Of a DNA stretch of 64,000 nt, positions 34,279-43,777 are shown one piece after another (positions within the stretch are counted from its first letter, which is position 1; the number at the start of each line of letters is the position of its first letter). Location: contig CAMCYD010000002.1 in NCBI GenBank assembly GCA_945883785.1, forward strand, positions 45,329 to 109,328. The letters run 5' to 3'. Made by a program: the position numbers and the translations under genes. This DNA is from Helicobacter pylori PMSS1 (GTDB lineage: Bacteria > Campylobacterota > Campylobacteria > Campylobacterales > Arcobacteraceae). The notes beneath the pieces are model-generated. The model was not told the origin of the DNA. It worked only from the letters and a program-made list of their open reading frames with translations, and ran no database searches.

Positions 34279-35433
34279 TCAAAAATATTTTCGAAATTTT
34301 TGTAAGTTATTTTTTAACTCTTTTTTGGGTAGGGCAATATTGAGTCTAAAAAAATATTTCCCATTTTTCCCAAAAGTTATCCCATCATTTAAAGCCACTT
34401 TTGCACCATGTAAAAGTGTATCTTTTATCTTTTTATGTTTTAAACTTGTCCCTTTAAAATCAAGCCATAAAAGATACGTTGCTTCACTTTTGATAACTTT
34501 TATATTTGGGAGGTATTGAGTAAAAAACTCCTCTGTTACATCTATATTCTTTTTCAGATAACCCAAAAGTTCCCGAAGCCAAATCGACCCCTCTTTGCTA
34601 TAACAACTCTCGATAATCGTATTTGAAAAGGAATTCAAAGAGGTGATATGGTGTTTTTTGGCACTTATTTTGAATTGTTCCATAATCTTACTATCAAGTG
34701 AAAAAGCATACGAGGTATTCAATCCTGCCACATTAAAAGTTTTACTTGGGGCATTTAAAATAAGTGAGGTTGGATTTATAGAAGCAAATGAAGTGAACTT
34801 AGCAAAAACCAAATCACTATGAATCTCATCAGAAACTACTAAAATATTGTGTGTTTTACAAATCTCATTTAACTTTGTAAGCTCCTCTTTACTCCAAACT
34901 CTCCCAACTGGATTGTGTGGGGAACAAAGGAGTAAGATTTTTGTTTTGGGTGTAATTTTGGAGTTAAAATCTTCAAAATCTATCTCATATTTCCCCTCTT
35001 TTAAAACAAGATTACTTTCAATTAACTCTCGATTGCTCTCTTTAATCACACTAAAAAATGGAAAATAGACAGGTGGAAAAACTACCACCTCATCACCAAT
35101 CTCACTAAATGACTCAACCGCCACTCTAAGCGAGGGGACAACCCCAGAGCAGATAAGAATATCCTCTTTTTGAAGACTTAACTCATGTCTTTTTTGCCAG
35201 TTCATAATAGCTTCAAAAGAGTTTTCACTTGGTATTTCATAACCAAAGATTTGTTGTTTGAGTTTCTTTTTAAGTGCTTTTTGTAAATATTTTGGGGTAG
35301 CAAAATCCATATCTGCAACCCATAAAGGTTTTACATCCGTGACTCCAAAGTAACTTTGAAGCCCATCGTATTTCACACAATTTGTTCCAATTCGCTCTAT
35401 TTTTTTATCAAAATTGATAGATTTTTGTTTCAT
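34279..35433 (-). CDS. PLP-dependent C-S lyase, probable OvoB (MalY/PatB family)
   Basis: 384 residues. By fold it is a class I/II aminotransferase-like beta-lyase: VKPLWVADMDFATP near the N terminus, SPHNPVGRVWSKEE, VVSDEIHSDLVF and the PLP lysine in NAPSKTFNVAGLN. Its ATG shares one base with the ovoA stop (TAATG). Because OvoA makes a histidyl-cysteine sulfoxide that a PLP lyase must cleave, this neighbour is a good candidate OvoB; by sequence alone cystathionine beta-lyase remains possible. Confidence 0.85.
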   Translation of the reverse strand: MKQKSINFDKKIERIGTNCVKYDGLQSYFGVTDVKPLWVADMDFATPKYLQKALKKKLKQQIFGYEIPSENSFEAIMNWQKRHELSLQKEDILICSGVVPSLRVAVESFSEIGDEVVVFPPVYFPFFSVIKESNRELIESNLVLKEGKYEIDFEDFNSKITPKTKILLLCSPHNPVGRVWSKEELTKLNEICKTHNILVVSDEIHSDLVFAKFTSFASINPTSLILNAPSKTFNVAGLNTSYAFSLDSKIMEQFKISAKKHHITSLNSFSNTIIESCYSKEGSIWLRELLGYLKKNIDVTEEFFTQYLPNIKVIKSEATYLLWLDFKGTSLKHKKIKDTLLHGAKVALNDGITFGKNGKYFFRLNIALPKKELKNNLQKFRKYF

Positions 35434-37310
35434 TATTTTTCCCAAACAGTAAAAAATTCTGTTTCATCGATAAGTTGCAATTTCTCTTTGAGTATATTTT
35501 TAAGTTGCTCTTTTTGAGTACAGTTCTTAAATGCAATTATGATTCTTCCACCCTCATTCAATCTTGTTTGAATATCTAAAAGCAAATGGGTAGGGTTATA
35601 AATCTCCTCAAAATTATTTGTAAGCAAAATAAAATCAAACCCTTTAAAATGAGGCTTAAGATTGCAACTATCCCCTTGCCAAAATGCGATATTTTCGGAA
35701 TCTTGTAACTCCAAATTTTTTTGTGCTATCAAAATATTTCTTGCCGTAAAATCTATCCCAATGATACTTTCAAAATAACTTGCGAGTTCAAATACACTTT
35801 TCCCATAGTCACAGCCAAGGTTGAGTGCACTTTTGAAATCATCTAAGATAAAGTTTTTAGCGATATGTGCGACTGTATCAAAAAACTCCACTTCCCTAAA
35901 AATTATCTCATCTTTGACAACTTCAATATCCTCTTTGTGGTCACTTGAAACTTCCACATATCGAAACCCAGCATGTTGAAAAAAGTGTCTTCTAAAAGCA
36001 TATCGTGAGCTTAAAAGTGCTTCATTTCCTGTACTTATAAAGGAACCACCCTTGATAATGTTATGCCTTCTATCAAAAGTTGGAACTGAAAAATCATCAT
36101 ACATAGGATGGATTTCAAATCCAGTAAATCCATCAATTGTTGTGGTTGTCCATTGCCAAACATTCCCAATCACATCATAAAAATCCCCATGGCTAAATTC
36201 ATCAACTGCACAAGGGGAACAGTAATGCTCAAGATTAATATTAGCTGGAGCAGTTTTCCCCCAGTTTGGCTCATCACTTAATCCACTTACTTCGTGAAGT
36301 CTATACCACATCGCTTCACTTGGCAGGGTTATGTTTTTTCCTATTTTGGATGATTTCCATTTGCAAAATGCCAAAGCTTCAAGATAATTTACCTCAACTG
36401 CCCAATTTAATGGAAGTGGGATAATATTTTGAATCGTTCTGAGATAGTAACTATCTTCTTTTAAAATCCAAAAAGTGGGATGAACTACCTTTGTATAATT
36501 TCTCCATCTAAGCCCTTCATCATCCCAAAAACTATCATTTTGGTATCCACCATCCTCTATAAATTCTAAAAATTCCCCATTGGATGTGAGATATTTTGAA
36601 GCTTTAAAATCATCGACTATAAAAGTAACTTCTCCATATTCATTATCCCAGCCATAAAAATCATCATCTTTATTTTTTCCAAGTGTTATTTTTCCGCCAC
36701 TTACCGCTAAAAGTTCATTTTTGGGAGTATCTTCATAATTTTGTGATTCATTAAAAAATAGGTTTTGTTTGATAAAATTTATCTCAAGTTGTCTATGGAG
36801 TACCGAAGATGTTTCAAGATGGATTCTTTCGTGTTCTATCCCCATCATCACTATCCACATAGGACTTTCCCAAGTTATCGGAAGCGAAAATGGAACTTTC
36901 TCTATAAAATCTAAAACAACCTCTTTAACTTTAAAGCGATAATTTCTCACATCTTCAACTTTTGGCCAAGAGTAATTTGATTGATTTAAGTCATCCCAAC
37001 TCATCTCATCAACTCCAATAGCAAAAATCGACTCATACGATGGGTTAATTCTCTCTTTTAAAAATCCACCAAGGATAAGTTTATTGATATAAAAAGTAGC
37101 CGTATGTCCAAAATAAAAGATAAGTGGATGTCGTAATTTTTCAGGTTGTTCGTAAAATATAGCATCACTTTGAAAGATTGTAAAAAGCTCTTCAAAAAGG
37201 GTGTAAGTTTTTAAAAAATACTCTTTGATTTCAGCTCTTTTAGCTTCAATATCATCGCCTTTTAAAGATAAATTTCGAGTGATAAAATCTTTCTTTTCTA
37301 ACTTTTTCAT
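35433..37310 (-). CDS. ovoA: 5-histidylcysteine sulfoxide synthase / 4-mercaptohistidine N-methyltransferase (OvoA)
   Basis: 625 residues. Ovothiol biosynthesis: iron-dependent C-S bond formation between histidine and cysteine, and N-methylation. Domains: DinB-like iron site with H69 (YFGHTATFY) and H160-x3-H164-x-E166 (EHERIHLE); sulfatase-modifying-factor-like domain (about 200-455, IGNVWQWT, GFRYVEV); C-terminal SAM methyltransferase (about 475-625, ALNLGCDYGKSVFELA). The presence of the methyltransferase and the His/Cys-type layout favours OvoA over EgtB. It is 3 bases after the mod gene and coupled to the lyase downstream. Confidence 0.9.
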   Translation of the reverse strand: MKKLEKKDFITRNLSLKGDDIEAKRAEIKEYFLKTYTLFEELFTIFQSDAIFYEQPEKLRHPLIFYFGHTATFYINKLILGGFLKERINPSYESIFAIGVDEMSWDDLNQSNYSWPKVEDVRNYRFKVKEVVLDFIEKVPFSLPITWESPMWIVMMGIEHERIHLETSSVLHRQLEINFIKQNLFFNESQNYEDTPKNELLAVSGGKITLGKNKDDDFYGWDNEYGEVTFIVDDFKASKYLTSNGEFLEFIEDGGYQNDSFWDDEGLRWRNYTKVVHPTFWILKEDSYYLRTIQNIIPLPLNWAVEVNYLEALAFCKWKSSKIGKNITLPSEAMWYRLHEVSGLSDEPNWGKTAPANINLEHYCSPCAVDEFSHGDFYDVIGNVWQWTTTTIDGFTGFEIHPMYDDFSVPTFDRRHNIIKGGSFISTGNEALLSSRYAFRRHFFQHAGFRYVEVSSDHKEDIEVVKDEIIFREVEFFDTVAHIAKNFILDDFKSALNLGCDYGKSVFELASYFESIIGIDFTARNILIAQKNLELQDSENIAFWQGDSCNLKPHFKGFDFILLTNNFEEIYNPTHLLLDIQTRLNEGGRIIIAFKNCTQKEQLKNILKEKLQLIDETEFFTVWEK

Positions 37311-37313
37311 ATT

Positions 37314-39326
37314 TTACTCAATCGGATAAATAATCTCATCACCAGCTATATTTCGCACTTTAATCCTTTTTGGTTTTGAAGTTGCACTTATTTTTCCATT
37401 CCAAAATTCTTTTGTTTTATTTCCATCGACTATTACAAATCCATTTTTATCAATCTTAAGTTCGGTGTCACTTTGCCACACACCACTTTCATTTGTACAG
37501 TCCAAGCTTATATACTCAATAAGTTCCAACCCCTCTTTACTTATTTCTATTAAAGTGGCTTTCCCTAGCAATCCTTTTTTTGCATTAAAATCACTTATTT
37601 TTTGTTTGAGTCTATCGCTATAAAATAAATCTATTTTTACCTCATAAAAAAGTCCATCGCAGTTTAAAGTGAACTCAACAATATCATCAACCACCACAAA
37701 ATCCAAAATTTGTTTTAAATCTCTTAGTTCTACATCTATAAGAGTTTCATTATTCTCTTTGATAAACTTCTCTATCTCTTTCATATCTTCAACATCAATA
37801 TAGTACACAACAACTTTTCTAATCATCCCATCATAATCATCGAAATTATAAAGTTCTCTATTAACAATCTCATTGATGGCGACAATATCTAAAACTTTTT
37901 TTGTACTATCTTTGATATCAGGGACATGCACAGGAACCGTCCCATATTTACTATCAATAAAATATCCATACCAAAAAGAGCTTATCCCTATTGGTTTATT
38001 GGGAGTTATCCCTTGAAGAAGTGTTTTTAATTTTTCCATTGTTTGGATGGGATTTCTAAAAAGATTGATACCGTCTTGCACTTCAAGGATTTTAAAATCA
38101 GCTTTTTTTTCAACAAGTCTATCTCTTACGGTTTGGATAGAGTTGATACCAATATCACAGTGGATAAACTTCCGACCCAAATCATTTGCCACTTTCGCAG
38201 TAACTCCACTTCCTCCAAAAAAATCAGCCACAACCATATTTTTATTTGATGAAGCTTCTATGATTCGTGTCAATAATGCTTCTGGTTTTTGAGTAGCATA
38301 ATCCACCCTTTCATTTTCGCCAGCCATAGCAATACCTCTAATGTCATCCCAAATGTTATCAACACTACTCATTTTAAAATAATGTCCATTCTCTTTTTCC
38401 AAATAATATTTAAGTCGAATCGTCCCATTTGTTGTTCTTAAAATACCATTTTCTATTTTTATTTCACCACCTTTTGTAGTGTGTAATCTCCCTTCCTCAT
38501 AAAATTTAATTAAACTTGCATTTGTATATGTTCCAATATGGGAAGTTGAATAAAATCCAAGTTCATCTTCATAAAAATTTTCTTTTGCTTCCTCTTTTGA
38601 ATATATTTTTTTTGTCTGCGAACCGTTCCAAATAGCTTCTTCGTTTTTAGTATATACAAATATATAATCAGCATTTTTACTATAATATTCACTATGTGTT
38701 TTCATACCACGGCTTACTTCTCTTCTCCAAATGATTTCATTTCTAAAATTCTCTTCTCCAAAAACCTCATCCATTAAAATCTTTACATAATGCCCAATAT
38801 GCCAATCAAGATGGACATAGATGCTCGCCGTATCACTCATCACAGACTTGATAGCCATCAGATTTTCAAACATCCAAGAGAGATAATCCTCTTTGTTCCA
38901 AATATCCCCATACATTTTTTCTTCAAAAGCTACAAGCTCACTAAATTCTAGCTGTTCTTCTGCTTTTTTGATTTTTTCGACAAGTTGGGGATTTCTTCGT
39001 ATATAAACTTTTTTAGCATAATCTGCTCCACTAGCAAATGGCGGGTCGATATAGACCAAATCAACTTTCATATCATTTTCTTTCAGATATGCACAAGCAG
39101 AGAGACATTCCCCACGGATAACAAGATTAGGAACCTCATCATTTTTCGGCTTTTCCCCCACAGTTTCAAGTTCGGTGAGTTCATAGTACGGAATCCCTCG
39201 TAAAATTCGCTCAAATGATTTATGATTGTCTTTATAGCTAAGAACTCTTTGTGTTCTTGTGATATTGTTCAATATCGCTTGACCTCGCACAGGTGATTTG
39301 TCATAAGGCATATATCGTATTGGCAT
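37314..39326 (-). CDS. mod: Type III restriction-modification DNA methyltransferase (Mod)
   Basis: 670 residues. DPPF at 94-97 (VYIDPPFASGADY) is the catalytic motif IV and comes before the SAM motif VVADFFGGSGVTAKVANDLGRKF (in part ADFFGGSG), the beta-class order of type III Mod proteins, which usually methylate adenine. The region between and after holds the target-recognition part; the recognition sequence cannot be predicted. One base separates it from res. No simple-sequence tract for phase variation was seen in it. Confidence 0.92.
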   Translation of the reverse strand: MPIRYMPYDKSPVRGQAILNNITRTQRVLSYKDNHKSFERILRGIPYYELTELETVGEKPKNDEVPNLVIRGECLSACAYLKENDMKVDLVYIDPPFASGADYAKKVYIRRNPQLVEKIKKAEEQLEFSELVAFEEKMYGDIWNKEDYLSWMFENLMAIKSVMSDTASIYVHLDWHIGHYVKILMDEVFGEENFRNEIIWRREVSRGMKTHSEYYSKNADYIFVYTKNEEAIWNGSQTKKIYSKEEAKENFYEDELGFYSTSHIGTYTNASLIKFYEEGRLHTTKGGEIKIENGILRTTNGTIRLKYYLEKENGHYFKMSSVDNIWDDIRGIAMAGENERVDYATQKPEALLTRIIEASSNKNMVVADFFGGSGVTAKVANDLGRKFIHCDIGINSIQTVRDRLVEKKADFKILEVQDGINLFRNPIQTMEKLKTLLQGITPNKPIGISSFWYGYFIDSKYGTVPVHVPDIKDSTKKVLDIVAINEIVNRELYNFDDYDGMIRKVVVYYIDVEDMKEIEKFIKENNETLIDVELRDLKQILDFVVVDDIVEFTLNCDGLFYEVKIDLFYSDRLKQKISDFNAKKGLLGKATLIEISKEGLELIEYISLDCTNESGVWQSDTELKIDKNGFVIVDGNKTKEFWNGKISATSKPKRIKVRNIAGDEIIYPIE

Positions 39327-39327
39327 T

Positions 39328-42072
39328 TTAGTTTTCCTTGAAAAATTGTGTTATTTTTTTATCTAAGTTGCTTAGATTTTCATCGATACTTTTACTATCT
39401 TCAAGATACAAAAAGTCAAATTTGTTGTATCCAAAAGCTGTATTGTTTGTTGCGATAAATTCCCCATCAACAAACTCTTTTTTAGCTTTGAATTTTTCAT
39501 CATTTGCGAAACCTTCCCCTTTTGTTTCCAAAATCAAAACTTTTTGTATCCTGTTTTGCTCATCTCGTTTGATGATGAGAAAGTCTGTAGTATAGCGACC
39601 GATATATTTGTAGCTATTTGGAAGTTTTTTGAAGCACTCTATTACAAATTCACTCAAGCCTCGTTCTCCGTTGTAATAAATCTCCAAGCCATGAAAATTA
39701 AATGTAAAAAATCGCTCTAAAATAGTTTTTTCAAGATTACTTTGTTTGAAGTTGTATGGCAAATAATGAAAAGATTTTTCTTTGTTTTTTGTTGCCATTT
39801 CGAGGTTTTCACTTAAGAGATTGATAGCTTCATCTGTTTTCCCTTGTGAAATCAAATCTATACTTTGTGTTTTCTTATTATTTGTAAATTCAGCTATAAA
39901 ATTTGGATTAGCATCAGCTTCCAATATCTGATTCACACCTTTTTGCGACGGATAGAGTTTAGAGTTGTTTTCGATTGTCTTTAAATTTTCTACTATAAGG
40001 ATACTTGATTCCTCTTTTAATTTTTCCATTTTAGAATGTACTTCTCTTTTGATACTAAAACAAAGAGCTATATCGTTATAAACCAATTCCAAAGTGTCAA
40101 TTGTATTGTAAATCTCTTGGAGCTCTTTTTGATATGGTTTTGTGTCAATTTGCATAAAGCTATTTTTTTCTATCTGAAATAAAAATGCTTCAAAACTTAC
40201 CTTACTAGAACTGTGTTCAAAAAATGCAGATTTGAAAGCCGTATCTTTGAAATCGCCACTTTTTATAAGCACTCTCTTTGCTTTATAGTTGTCACTATGC
40301 AGTAAGATAGCTTCCAATTTTCGTTTTGTATTTGAGTCTTTTTCAATATTTGCCATTGTGTAGTGGATACGAAGTTGGTAAAAATCTATTTTTGGTAATT
40401 TTAGATGTTCACTTCTTGAAATCCTTTGAATCCTATTTACCCCAGAAAATCTTTGCAATCTATTTATCTCTTCAATAGAGCTATTTTGTTCTTTTTTTAG
40501 CTGTTCATTTAAAATTTTAGCATTTGATTCATTCAACCAAATAAGAGCCGTATTACTATTTTTATCCACTTCTCGTAAACATCTACACGATGTTTGGAGT
40601 ACCATATTTTTTGGACTATCACCACTTCCACTTAAAATTACAGAAGTCAAACTTCTACAATCCCAGCCCTCTTTTCCTACTTGCACTAAGAGAATATATC
40701 TTTTTTGACTACTTGGAAAATCCAGCATTCTAAATTCAAACTCCCAACTTCCATCAACTTTGTATTCTTTATTTCCTTTGTGAAATTTTAAAATCTCCTC
40801 TTTTGGAATGTGAAGTGAAAGTAAATGAGGATAAACAACAGTTTCCAAATCCTCAATACTACTACAATAAATAGCACATTTTGCTATCGTTCCATCTTCA
40901 TAAACTTTTGTTTTATAAAGCTTATCAAAGTCGTTTATCGCTTGTGTAAGAATCTCTTTTTTCTCTAAATTTGCACTTTTGACCATAGGAAGTTTGAGAA
41001 ATTTTTCTATCGCTGTGGTAAGGGGATAGTAATATACGGTATTTGTGATAGTTGAAAATCTAAAAGAATCCACTTCATTGATAAATATCTTTTCTGGGGA
41101 ATTTAAATAAGGTGTTCCACTAAAACCTAAAACAGTTGTGATATTTCCTTTTTCATTCCACCAAGAAACTACTTGTCGAAGTTTTATCTCATCGGAAGCT
41201 GCATGATGGACTTCATCTATCAGAATGGAAAGGTTTGGAATAAGGGCTATTTTTTGTTTGAGTTCATTTTCTACAATCTCATCTTTCGAAAAAAGTTCAT
41301 TCAGTTTACCATCTAAAATAACTTTTTCAGCATTGACTACAAAAACTTGCCCGAAAGGATTTGGCAATATAGTGAGGACTTTCGCTGCATTTGGATTGTT
41401 TGCAAGATTTGATTTTTTAGCTGTTTTTGGTACATCTAACACATCAAATTGCAAAATCTTTTTAACCGCATCTGCTTCATTCTTTGGTAACACCCAGCTA
41501 CCATCAAAAGAAGCTATTGATTTCAGTGATGGGGCTATTGAGTTTTTGAGTCCAGAAGGGATAAGTATCAAAAAGTTGTGTGCAAAATTTTTGTTCTCTG
41601 GTTCTTTTGCAGCAAAATGTAAATCAAGATAAATAAAAGATGCCATAAGATAAGTCTTACCAGCTCCCATTGGCAAGGATAAAAGATAATCACTGTAGTT
41701 TACCCCATAAAAAATTTGCTTCATAATCGCTTCATAGTCTATTGGCTGATGGGTTTGAATAGCTTTTGCTAGAGATGGTAAATCTTTTTTTGCAAAATTA
41801 TAAAGAGAGAGTTTTTTTATCTCTCCTCTCTCAAACAAAGCTAGTTCAAAACCATCCAAACTATCATTATTGATAAAAAATCCAGCTGCAAAAAGCTCCC
41901 ACAACGGCTTATTTTCCCCTTTAATTTTGAGAAATAAGTAAATCTCAATCGCTTCAATTTGGGCAACTCTCAGTGCTTTTCTCTCTTTTATATAGTGTAA
42001 CAATTCTTTGATAGTGCATTCTGAAGATTCCAACCATCTATTTTTGAATTTTTGAATTGTATTGAAAAGCAT
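39328..42072 (-). CDS. res: Type III restriction enzyme Res subunit (helicase-nuclease)
   Basis: 914 residues. Walker A at 134-140 (PMGAGKT), DEAH-type box ILIDEVHHAAS, SF2 motif III VLGFSGTPYLN, and motif VI region LQTSCRCLREV. A C-terminal PD-(D/E)xK nuclease is visible as TDFLIIKRDEQ...VLILETKGEGF. Cuts DNA with Mod after ATP-driven movement or communication. It lies 4 bases after proS and looks intact. Confidence 0.92.
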   Translation of the reverse strand: MLFNTIQKFKNRWLESSECTIKELLHYIKERKALRVAQIEAIEIYLFLKIKGENKPLWELFAAGFFINNDSLDGFELALFERGEIKKLSLYNFAKKDLPSLAKAIQTHQPIDYEAIMKQIFYGVNYSDYLLSLPMGAGKTYLMASFIYLDLHFAAKEPENKNFAHNFLILIPSGLKNSIAPSLKSIASFDGSWVLPKNEADAVKKILQFDVLDVPKTAKKSNLANNPNAAKVLTILPNPFGQVFVVNAEKVILDGKLNELFSKDEIVENELKQKIALIPNLSILIDEVHHAASDEIKLRQVVSWWNEKGNITTVLGFSGTPYLNSPEKIFINEVDSFRFSTITNTVYYYPLTTAIEKFLKLPMVKSANLEKKEILTQAINDFDKLYKTKVYEDGTIAKCAIYCSSIEDLETVVYPHLLSLHIPKEEILKFHKGNKEYKVDGSWEFEFRMLDFPSSQKRYILLVQVGKEGWDCRSLTSVILSGSGDSPKNMVLQTSCRCLREVDKNSNTALIWLNESNAKILNEQLKKEQNSSIEEINRLQRFSGVNRIQRISRSEHLKLPKIDFYQLRIHYTMANIEKDSNTKRKLEAILLHSDNYKAKRVLIKSGDFKDTAFKSAFFEHSSSKVSFEAFLFQIEKNSFMQIDTKPYQKELQEIYNTIDTLELVYNDIALCFSIKREVHSKMEKLKEESSILIVENLKTIENNSKLYPSQKGVNQILEADANPNFIAEFTNNKKTQSIDLISQGKTDEAINLLSENLEMATKNKEKSFHYLPYNFKQSNLEKTILERFFTFNFHGLEIYYNGERGLSEFVIECFKKLPNSYKYIGRYTTDFLIIKRDEQNRIQKVLILETKGEGFANDEKFKAKKEFVDGEFIATNNTAFGYNKFDFLYLEDSKSIDENLSNLDKKITQFFKEN

Positions 42073-42076
42073 TTTT

Positions 42077-43777
42077 TCATTTTCCTTGTAAAACTTCTAC
42101 GATATCTTCTACTCGGATATCCTCTTTTTCTCCACTTTTTCTATCCACCAATTCAACAAGCCCCTCACTCAATTTTTTCCCAATAACAACTGCATAAGGG
42201 AAACCAATAAGTTCAAAATCACTCATCTTAAATCCAAATCGCTCTTTTACCCTATCATCCATAATCACTTCAATCCCAGCTGATTTCAACCCTTCATAGA
42301 TTTGAGTTCCAGCTGTCATCTCCTCTTCATTTTTTCCATTTGAGATGATGATATCCACAAAAAATGGTGCTGTTTCTTTTGTCCAGATACACCCTTTTTC
42401 GTCGTGACTTTGCTCAATTACAGCCGCTATGAGTCTACTTACCCCAATCCCATAAGTTCCCATCTCAAATGGTTTACTTTTTCCATTGTTGTCTAAAAAG
42501 TTTGCTCCAAGTGCTTTTGAATATTTATCTCCAAGTTGAAAAATATGCCCAACTTCTATCCCTTTTGTATAGCTTAGTTTTCCGCCACAACACTCACAAA
42601 TATCGCCCTCTTTAACAGCCACCAAATCAAAATAAACATCTTCGCTCAAAAAACAAACTTCAACACCACCAAGATGATAATCCGCTTCATTTGCTCCGCA
42701 AACCATATCGTTTTCATCTCTCAGTTCACTGTCTATTCTAAACATCACATTTGATGGAAGCACTTTGATGCCTACATATCCAGCCACAAGCCCTGCATTG
42801 CGTATCTCTTCTTCACTAATATCTGCTAATTCCAAAGCATTAACGCTATTGCAAGCTTTTGTCTCTTCAAGTTCATCATCCCCTCTTACAAAAAATACAG
42901 CTACTTTTTCACCGTCTTCATAGATTGCTTTTTTGATAACTGCTTTGATTGTTTGAGATGGCTCAATCTCTAAAAATCTACTCAAATCCTCGATAGTTTT
43001 TGTGTTTGGAGTGCTTATTTTTCCGTTTAATAAACTTTTTTTAGCCCCAAATTGTCGTGGTTTTCGCTTTGCTGCCTCGATATTTGCACCATAATTACAA
43101 CTATCACAAACAACAATCGTATCCTCTCCACTATTTGCAAGCACATGAAACTCTTTACTTCCAGTTCCACCAATTGCTCCACTATCAGCATCAACGATTC
43201 TAAAATCAAGCCCAAGTCTTGTAAAGATTTTTTTATAAGTTTCCTCCATAAGTGAAAATTCTCGTTTCATATCTTCAGTATCGGCATGAAAAGAATAGCC
43301 ATCTTTCATCAAAAATTCTCTTCCTCTCATCAGCCCAAATCGTGGTCGTGCTTCATCTCTAAATTTTGTATTTATTTGATAAAGATTGAGTGGTAAGTCT
43401 TTATAGCTTGTTACTCTATTTTTGACTAACTCAACCATAGCTTCTTCATTTGTTGGGCTTAAGACAAAACCATTGTTTTTTCTATCTTTGATTCGAAGCA
43501 TTTCAAGTCCCATTTTAGAAGCTCTTCCGCTATTTTCCCAAAATTCGATTGGAGTTACAAATGAAAGTTGCACCTCCATCGCTCCACTATTATCAAGTTC
43601 CTCTTTTACTACATTTCTTATCTTATCAAGTACGATTTTCCCTAGTGGCAAGTAGTTATAAAGTCCACTTCCGCTTGTATTGATAAATCCAGCTCGAAGT
43701 AAAAATTGATGGCTTGGCAAAGTCGCATCGTTTGGTGTTTCTTTTGTTGTTGGTATAAAAAGTTTTGAGAATTTCAT
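42077..43777 (-). CDS. proS: Prolyl-tRNA synthetase
   Basis: 566 residues, bacterial-type class II enzyme. Motif 2 and 3 regions appear as [28 protein letters not shown] (in part [17 protein letters not shown]) and [17 protein letters not shown] YbaK-like editing domain lies between them (about 225-395), and an anticodon-binding domain is at the C terminus. It follows hemA with a one-base gap. Confidence 0.97.

Follow-up and report, generated by a model that had tools for sequence, protein, structure and literature searches.

An ovoA gene with a conserved compact methyltransferase domain, coupled to an ovoB-type lyase gene in a Campylobacterota genome

It is common to regard an OvoA protein as a bifunctional ovothiol synthase, and 5-thiohistidine is an antioxidant-type amino acid. 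The bifunctional enzyme OvoATh2 (8khq) is that of Hydrogenimonas thermophila, a member of the Campylobacterota, and the closest solved 5-thiohistidine N-methyltransferase is OvoM of Sulfuricurvum sp. STB_99 (9bxl/9bxm/9bxn). As both structures are already in the PDB, ovothiol genes are known in this phylum, and the pathway is not new there. According to the literature, histidine and cysteine are converted to 5-histidylcysteine sulfoxide and then to 5-thiohistidine (PMC9103826; PMC12631010); a review names a Sulfurimonas species among the bacterial carriers of ovoA, and also reports OvoA-like proteins that lack a methyltransferase domain (PMC9103826). Here, we analyzed an ovoA-lyase gene pair in a stretch of 64,000 nucleotides (hereafter, the window) from the draft genome (about 97% complete, 193 contigs) of a sulfur-loving bacterium of the order Campylobacterales, probably of the family Arcobacteraceae.

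The ovoA-lyase operon and its two enzymes

Both open reading frames are intact where they had been placed (Table 1), and the TAATG overlap said to couple ovoA to the next gene is present in the sequence. In close relatives, proS lies directly upstream of ovoA, and the same operon in loci L035 and L036 reads hemA-proS-ovoA-ovoB. In the window, a res-first type III-like restriction-modification pair occupies 37314-42072 (minus strand) between proS and ovoA; the spacings there are 1-4 bp, both to the neighboring proS and ovoA and between the two genes. The close relatives with adjacent proS and ovoA lack this pair, and neither mod nor res had a match in the loci of relatives.

Table 1. Positions of the operon features and neighboring genes in the window
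Feature	Position	Strand	Description
proS	42077..43777	minus	prolyl-tRNA synthetase (Pfam; synteny in L035/L036)
res	39328-42072	minus	type III-like restriction-modification pair
mod	37314-39326	minus	type III-like restriction-modification pair
ovoA	35433-37310	minus	625 aa
ovoA sulfoxide-synthase core	35955..37310	minus	residues 1-452; DinB_2 iron-binding helical domain and FGE-type domain; predicted iron ligands H69, H160, H164; invariant Y404
ovoA compact SAM-methyltransferase domain	35433..35834	minus	residues 493-625 with the stop codon; Rossmann core with all seven strands (TIGR04345, alignment, AlphaFold model, fold match)
codon of E569	35604..35606	minus	replaces Arg of NLIDRLYDP in full OvoM domains
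TAATG stop/start overlap	35431..35435	minus	couples ovoA to the lyase gene
ovoB-type PatB-family PLP C-S lyase	34279..35433	minus	384 aa from the ATG of TAATG; PLP lysine K231 (TIGR04350, PDB 6qp3 PatB, invariant residues, adjacency in 69 genomes)

The OvoA core scored 668.7 bits against the curated model TIGR04344 (cut-off, 400) over residues 13-452, Pfam identified DinB_2 and FGE-sulfatase domains, and the best PDB match of the protein was OvoATh2 (8khq; E 2.9e-204). At the family level, E-values of 3.8e-201 and 2.5e-134 for the pair rule out a chance match, and both genes are confirmed as real. The iron site of sulfoxide synthases consists of three histidines, and such a site, set in the DinB plus FGE-type domain architecture, was found in the core. 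The four residues originally assigned to it (H69, H160, H164, and E166) are correctly placed and invariant across 25 aligned homologues; given three histidine ligands, however, E166 is a conserved neighbor of the site and not a ligand. An ergothioneine pathway was considered and rejected, since the EgtB model TIGR03440 reached 165.6 bits against a cut-off of 360 and the window genome has no PF10017 match, i.e., no EgtD.

The product of the downstream gene scored 448 bits against the curated model TIGR04350 (cut-off, 340), and the lysine expected of a PLP-dependent C-S lyase is conserved. In the PDB search it matched PatB (6qp3) with 333 bits versus 183 bits for MalY; thus, the predicted PLP lyase is borne out, but it stands nearer to PatB than to the MalY type to which it had been assigned.

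A compact methyltransferase domain under purifying selection

The OvoA tail following residue 452 measures 173 aa in the window versus about 250 aa in the nearest full-length relatives; the usual size of the methyltransferase is about 254 aa. The methyltransferase domain originally noted in OvoA is present (Pfam Methyltransf_31, 47.3 bits) but reduced, scoring 106.8 bits against the 170-bit cut-off of TIGR04345, the curated model of OvoM and the OvoA C-terminal domain. Full OvoA methyltransferase domains have 69 conserved positions, of which the window protein retains 25 and has lost 44. Those retained mostly belong to the core or bind SAM (G499, C500, G503, D520, D547, and N550-K552), and the FWQGD.CNLK strip is also present. 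More specifically, the alignment shows that the compact domain lacks the N-terminal lid YE.DE.SQYC, an insert of ~28 residues, SPYTW...WLGG, and FVIRETxRKFQH, and that NLIDR of full domains is replaced by NNFEE in the window. The arginine of NLIDRLYDP, which follows strand 4, corresponds to Glu569, and each of the family's ten compact sequences has glutamate at this position. The absent or replaced segments (the YE.DE.SQY lid, NLIDRL, SPYTW..WIGG, and FVIRET..RKFQH) are common to OvoATh2, Sulfuricurvum OvoM and, slightly changed, the selenium-specific OvsM, and they presumably bind substrate; apart from the SAM-binding core, the compact domain retains none of the segments that these three enzymes share. 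The SAM-binding Rossmann core is preserved, with its motifs kept and a complete seven-strand fold predicted by AlphaFold (pLDDT 89), for which the best solved matches were OvoATh2 (8khq) and OvoM (9bxl).

Within the window's family, the ten compact domains, from ten species, form one clade (support 100/99) with the invariant signature TARN, FWQGD, and E-[IL]-Y. Their dN/dS was 0.13-0.19 where computable, dS being saturated in some pairs, and that of the lyase was similar. The compact domain is under purifying selection, and the same values, with the same saturation of dS in some pairs, rule out decay. Elsewhere in the order, compact or absent domains have separate origins on the core tree; a single loss across the order was rejected, as that tree requires several changes to explain the proteins whose domain is compact or missing. 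In the limited open-access literature covered, we found no description of the conserved compact domain.

Separate routes to methylation were likewise surveyed. A complete standalone OvoM accompanies compact OvoA in G244 and G356, and G328 (L258), which belongs to the same genus as the window genome, encodes an OvoA of 444 aa without any methyltransferase domain, followed by the lyase; its standalone OvoM lies at another site. No separate OvoM was found in eight of the ten compact species (G000, G267, G043, G329, G331, G332, G096, and G120), including a 100% complete genome (G267) and a single-contig one (G096). No second OvoM was detected in the window genome; weaker matches there are attributable to generic methyltransferases, because the same threshold produced matches in all 14 control genomes. 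In G170 (contig 11, L085:391-2229), a full OvoM-type domain is fused behind an ADP-ribosylglycohydrolase, and OvoA of that genome lacks the domain. By eye, the standalone OvoM at L086 has ThrE-like neighbors; an association of OvoM with an exporter was dismissed, having been seen once (L086) and not repeated at L245 or L247.

A route to N-acetyl-5-thiohistidine was also rejected: a search with a 5THNAT-like protein of Petrimonas (L145) returned no homologue from the window genome, and no OvoA-linked GNAT acetyltransferase was found, the relatives showing only weak generic GNATs. At OvoA loci of Bacteroidota, L189 and L152 among them, methyltransferase domains are of full size with a degraded SAM motif (e.g., LDLNADTGR), and at some such loci a 5THNAT-like acetyltransferase lies directly upstream of OvoA.

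Candidate end products of the operon

From strong homology and gene linkage, we infer that the OvoA core would use non-heme iron and O2 to join the sulfur of cysteine to C5 of histidine, yielding 5-histidylcysteine sulfoxide, and that the PatB-type lyase, acting as OvoB, would cleave the C-S bond with PLP to release 5-thiohistidine, pyruvate, and ammonia. Among 299 genomes of the order, with the lyase counted at E <= 1e-40, OvoA was present in 126, the lyase in 152, both in 121, and neither in 142. The lyase thus occurs in 121/126 genomes with OvoA versus 31/173 without it (Fisher p 9e-47, a value that ignores shared ancestry), and in 69 genomes its gene lies directly downstream of OvoA. Within the window's family, 20 of 30 genomes carry OvoA and 20 a lyase of the close class, the two coinciding in 19, whereas a more distant lyase is the only one in nine of the ten genomes without OvoA. 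The original assignment of a sulfoxide synthase with an OvoB-type lyase stands on the curated models, this adjacency and strong co-occurrence, and the lack of EgtD. It is very unlikely that the lyase is instead a housekeeping enzyme of the PatB/MalY type, acting on cystathionine or cysteine conjugates and lying beside ovoA by chance, with OvoB activity supplied from elsewhere. The family is broad in substrate, the searched model libraries yielded no OvoB-specific curated model, and PatB-type lyases do occur in the 31 OvoA-less genomes; however, the coupling is tight and recurrent, most OvoA-less genomes of the window's family carry a different lyase class (40-46% identical), the ovoA-coupled gene encodes the sole PatB-type lyase of the window genome, and one separate canonical PLP enzyme of Cys/Met metabolism is encoded there. 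Synthesis of 5-thiohistidine by the pair is accordingly graded as well supported, given linkage across the order and within the family, the missing EgtD, and that single canonical Cys/Met enzyme; it is not new.

The claim that the two genes would suffice for ovothiol A finds no support in that form: ovothiol A needs Npi-methylation by the C-terminal domain of OvoA, and the compact domain has lost 44 of 69 conserved positions and falls below the TIGR04345 cut-off in a genome with no OvoM. We regard the domain as a retained SAM-binding methyltransferase core that would not carry out canonical Npi-methylation. Because the domain is maintained by selection and has a distinct signature, a changed role appears most likely, and we hold it to be probable: the domain may act on another acceptor or position, or serve in SAM binding or structure. 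Evidence for methylation apart from the compact domain comes from the standalone OvoM that G244 and G356 have in addition to compact OvoA, and G328 in addition to a domain-less OvoA. A more specific version, offered tentatively, is that the domain is a re-specialized methyltransferase with a different target atom or acceptor, its substrate being 5-thiohistidine or a partner; this clade of Campylobacterota could then make a thiohistidine derivative that has so far not been described. Several points speak against a changed role. A different mode of 5-thiohistidine binding is conceivable for a minimal Rossmann core, possibly with the OvoA core in cis; should the eight OvoM-less compact species require ovothiol, the compact domain would be the first enzyme to consider; coexistence with OvoM was seen in just two compact genomes; and an unseen OvoM in the window genome is possible.

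A rival reading is that the compact domain is a slimmed-down but working 5-thiohistidine Npi-methyltransferase and that the two genes make ovothiol A. Its derivation from the OvoA domain, its retained SAM motifs and FWQGD.CNLK strip, the complete predicted fold with OvoATh2/OvoM as best match, purifying selection, and the lack of another OvoM in most compact species are all consistent with such an enzyme. Nevertheless, the compact domain has deleted or replaced the segments that OvoATh2, OvoM, and even OvsM have in common, the arginine after strand 4 has become glutamate in 10/10 sequences, and a separate full OvoM persists in two compact genomes, so that we consider this reading rather doubtful. 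Far less probable is that ovothiol A is made with a separate OvoM encoded in the missing few percent of the draft genome. The fragmented assembly and the standalone full OvoM of G244, G356, and the same-genus G328 would accommodate it, but five compact species of the same genus lack OvoM too, as does the single-contig G096. As canonical Npi-methylation would be missing from the compact domain, 5-thiohistidine itself, or some derivative of it that is not ovothiol A, is the more likely end product, and ovothiol A is unproven.

Significance and relation to known systems

Across the whole clade, the sulfur-inserting half and the lyase are kept, and the methyltransferase half lacks segments conserved in known thiohistidine methyltransferases; in some clade members, the methylation gene is separate from OvoA. 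The presence of ovoA should therefore not be equated with the making of ovothiol. The compact clade makes it testable which thiohistidine accumulates and whether Npi-methylation matters for function.

Compared with described systems, the sulfoxide synthase EgtB-IV (8vih, 8vig) has a core related to that of the window OvoA (343 bits), but the latter does not reach the EgtB model and has no EgtD in its genome. The window lyase shares PLP fold-type I and the PLP lysine with PatB lyases (6qp3) and with OvoB, the C-S lyase of Erwinia tasmaniensis, to which it is likened by described role (PMC9103826). The core aligns with OvoATh2 over its whole length, with the same iron histidines; the two differ in that OvoATh2 comprises 728 aa with a full OvoM-type domain, versus 625 aa with a compact domain in the window. 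Similarly, the compact domain fits Sulfuricurvum OvoM (TM 0.75-0.77 by query length) but departs from it in YE.DE.SQY, SPYTW..WIGG, FVIRET..RKFQH, and the arginine of NLIDRL, none of which it has. Finally, in OvoA proteins without a methyltransferase domain, including those of the Bacteroidota 5THNAT pathway, the final methylation is likewise lost or bypassed (PMC12631010; PMC9103826). In contrast to these, the window OvoA occurs in a genome without a 5THNAT homologue and keeps a compact SAM-binding domain maintained by selection.
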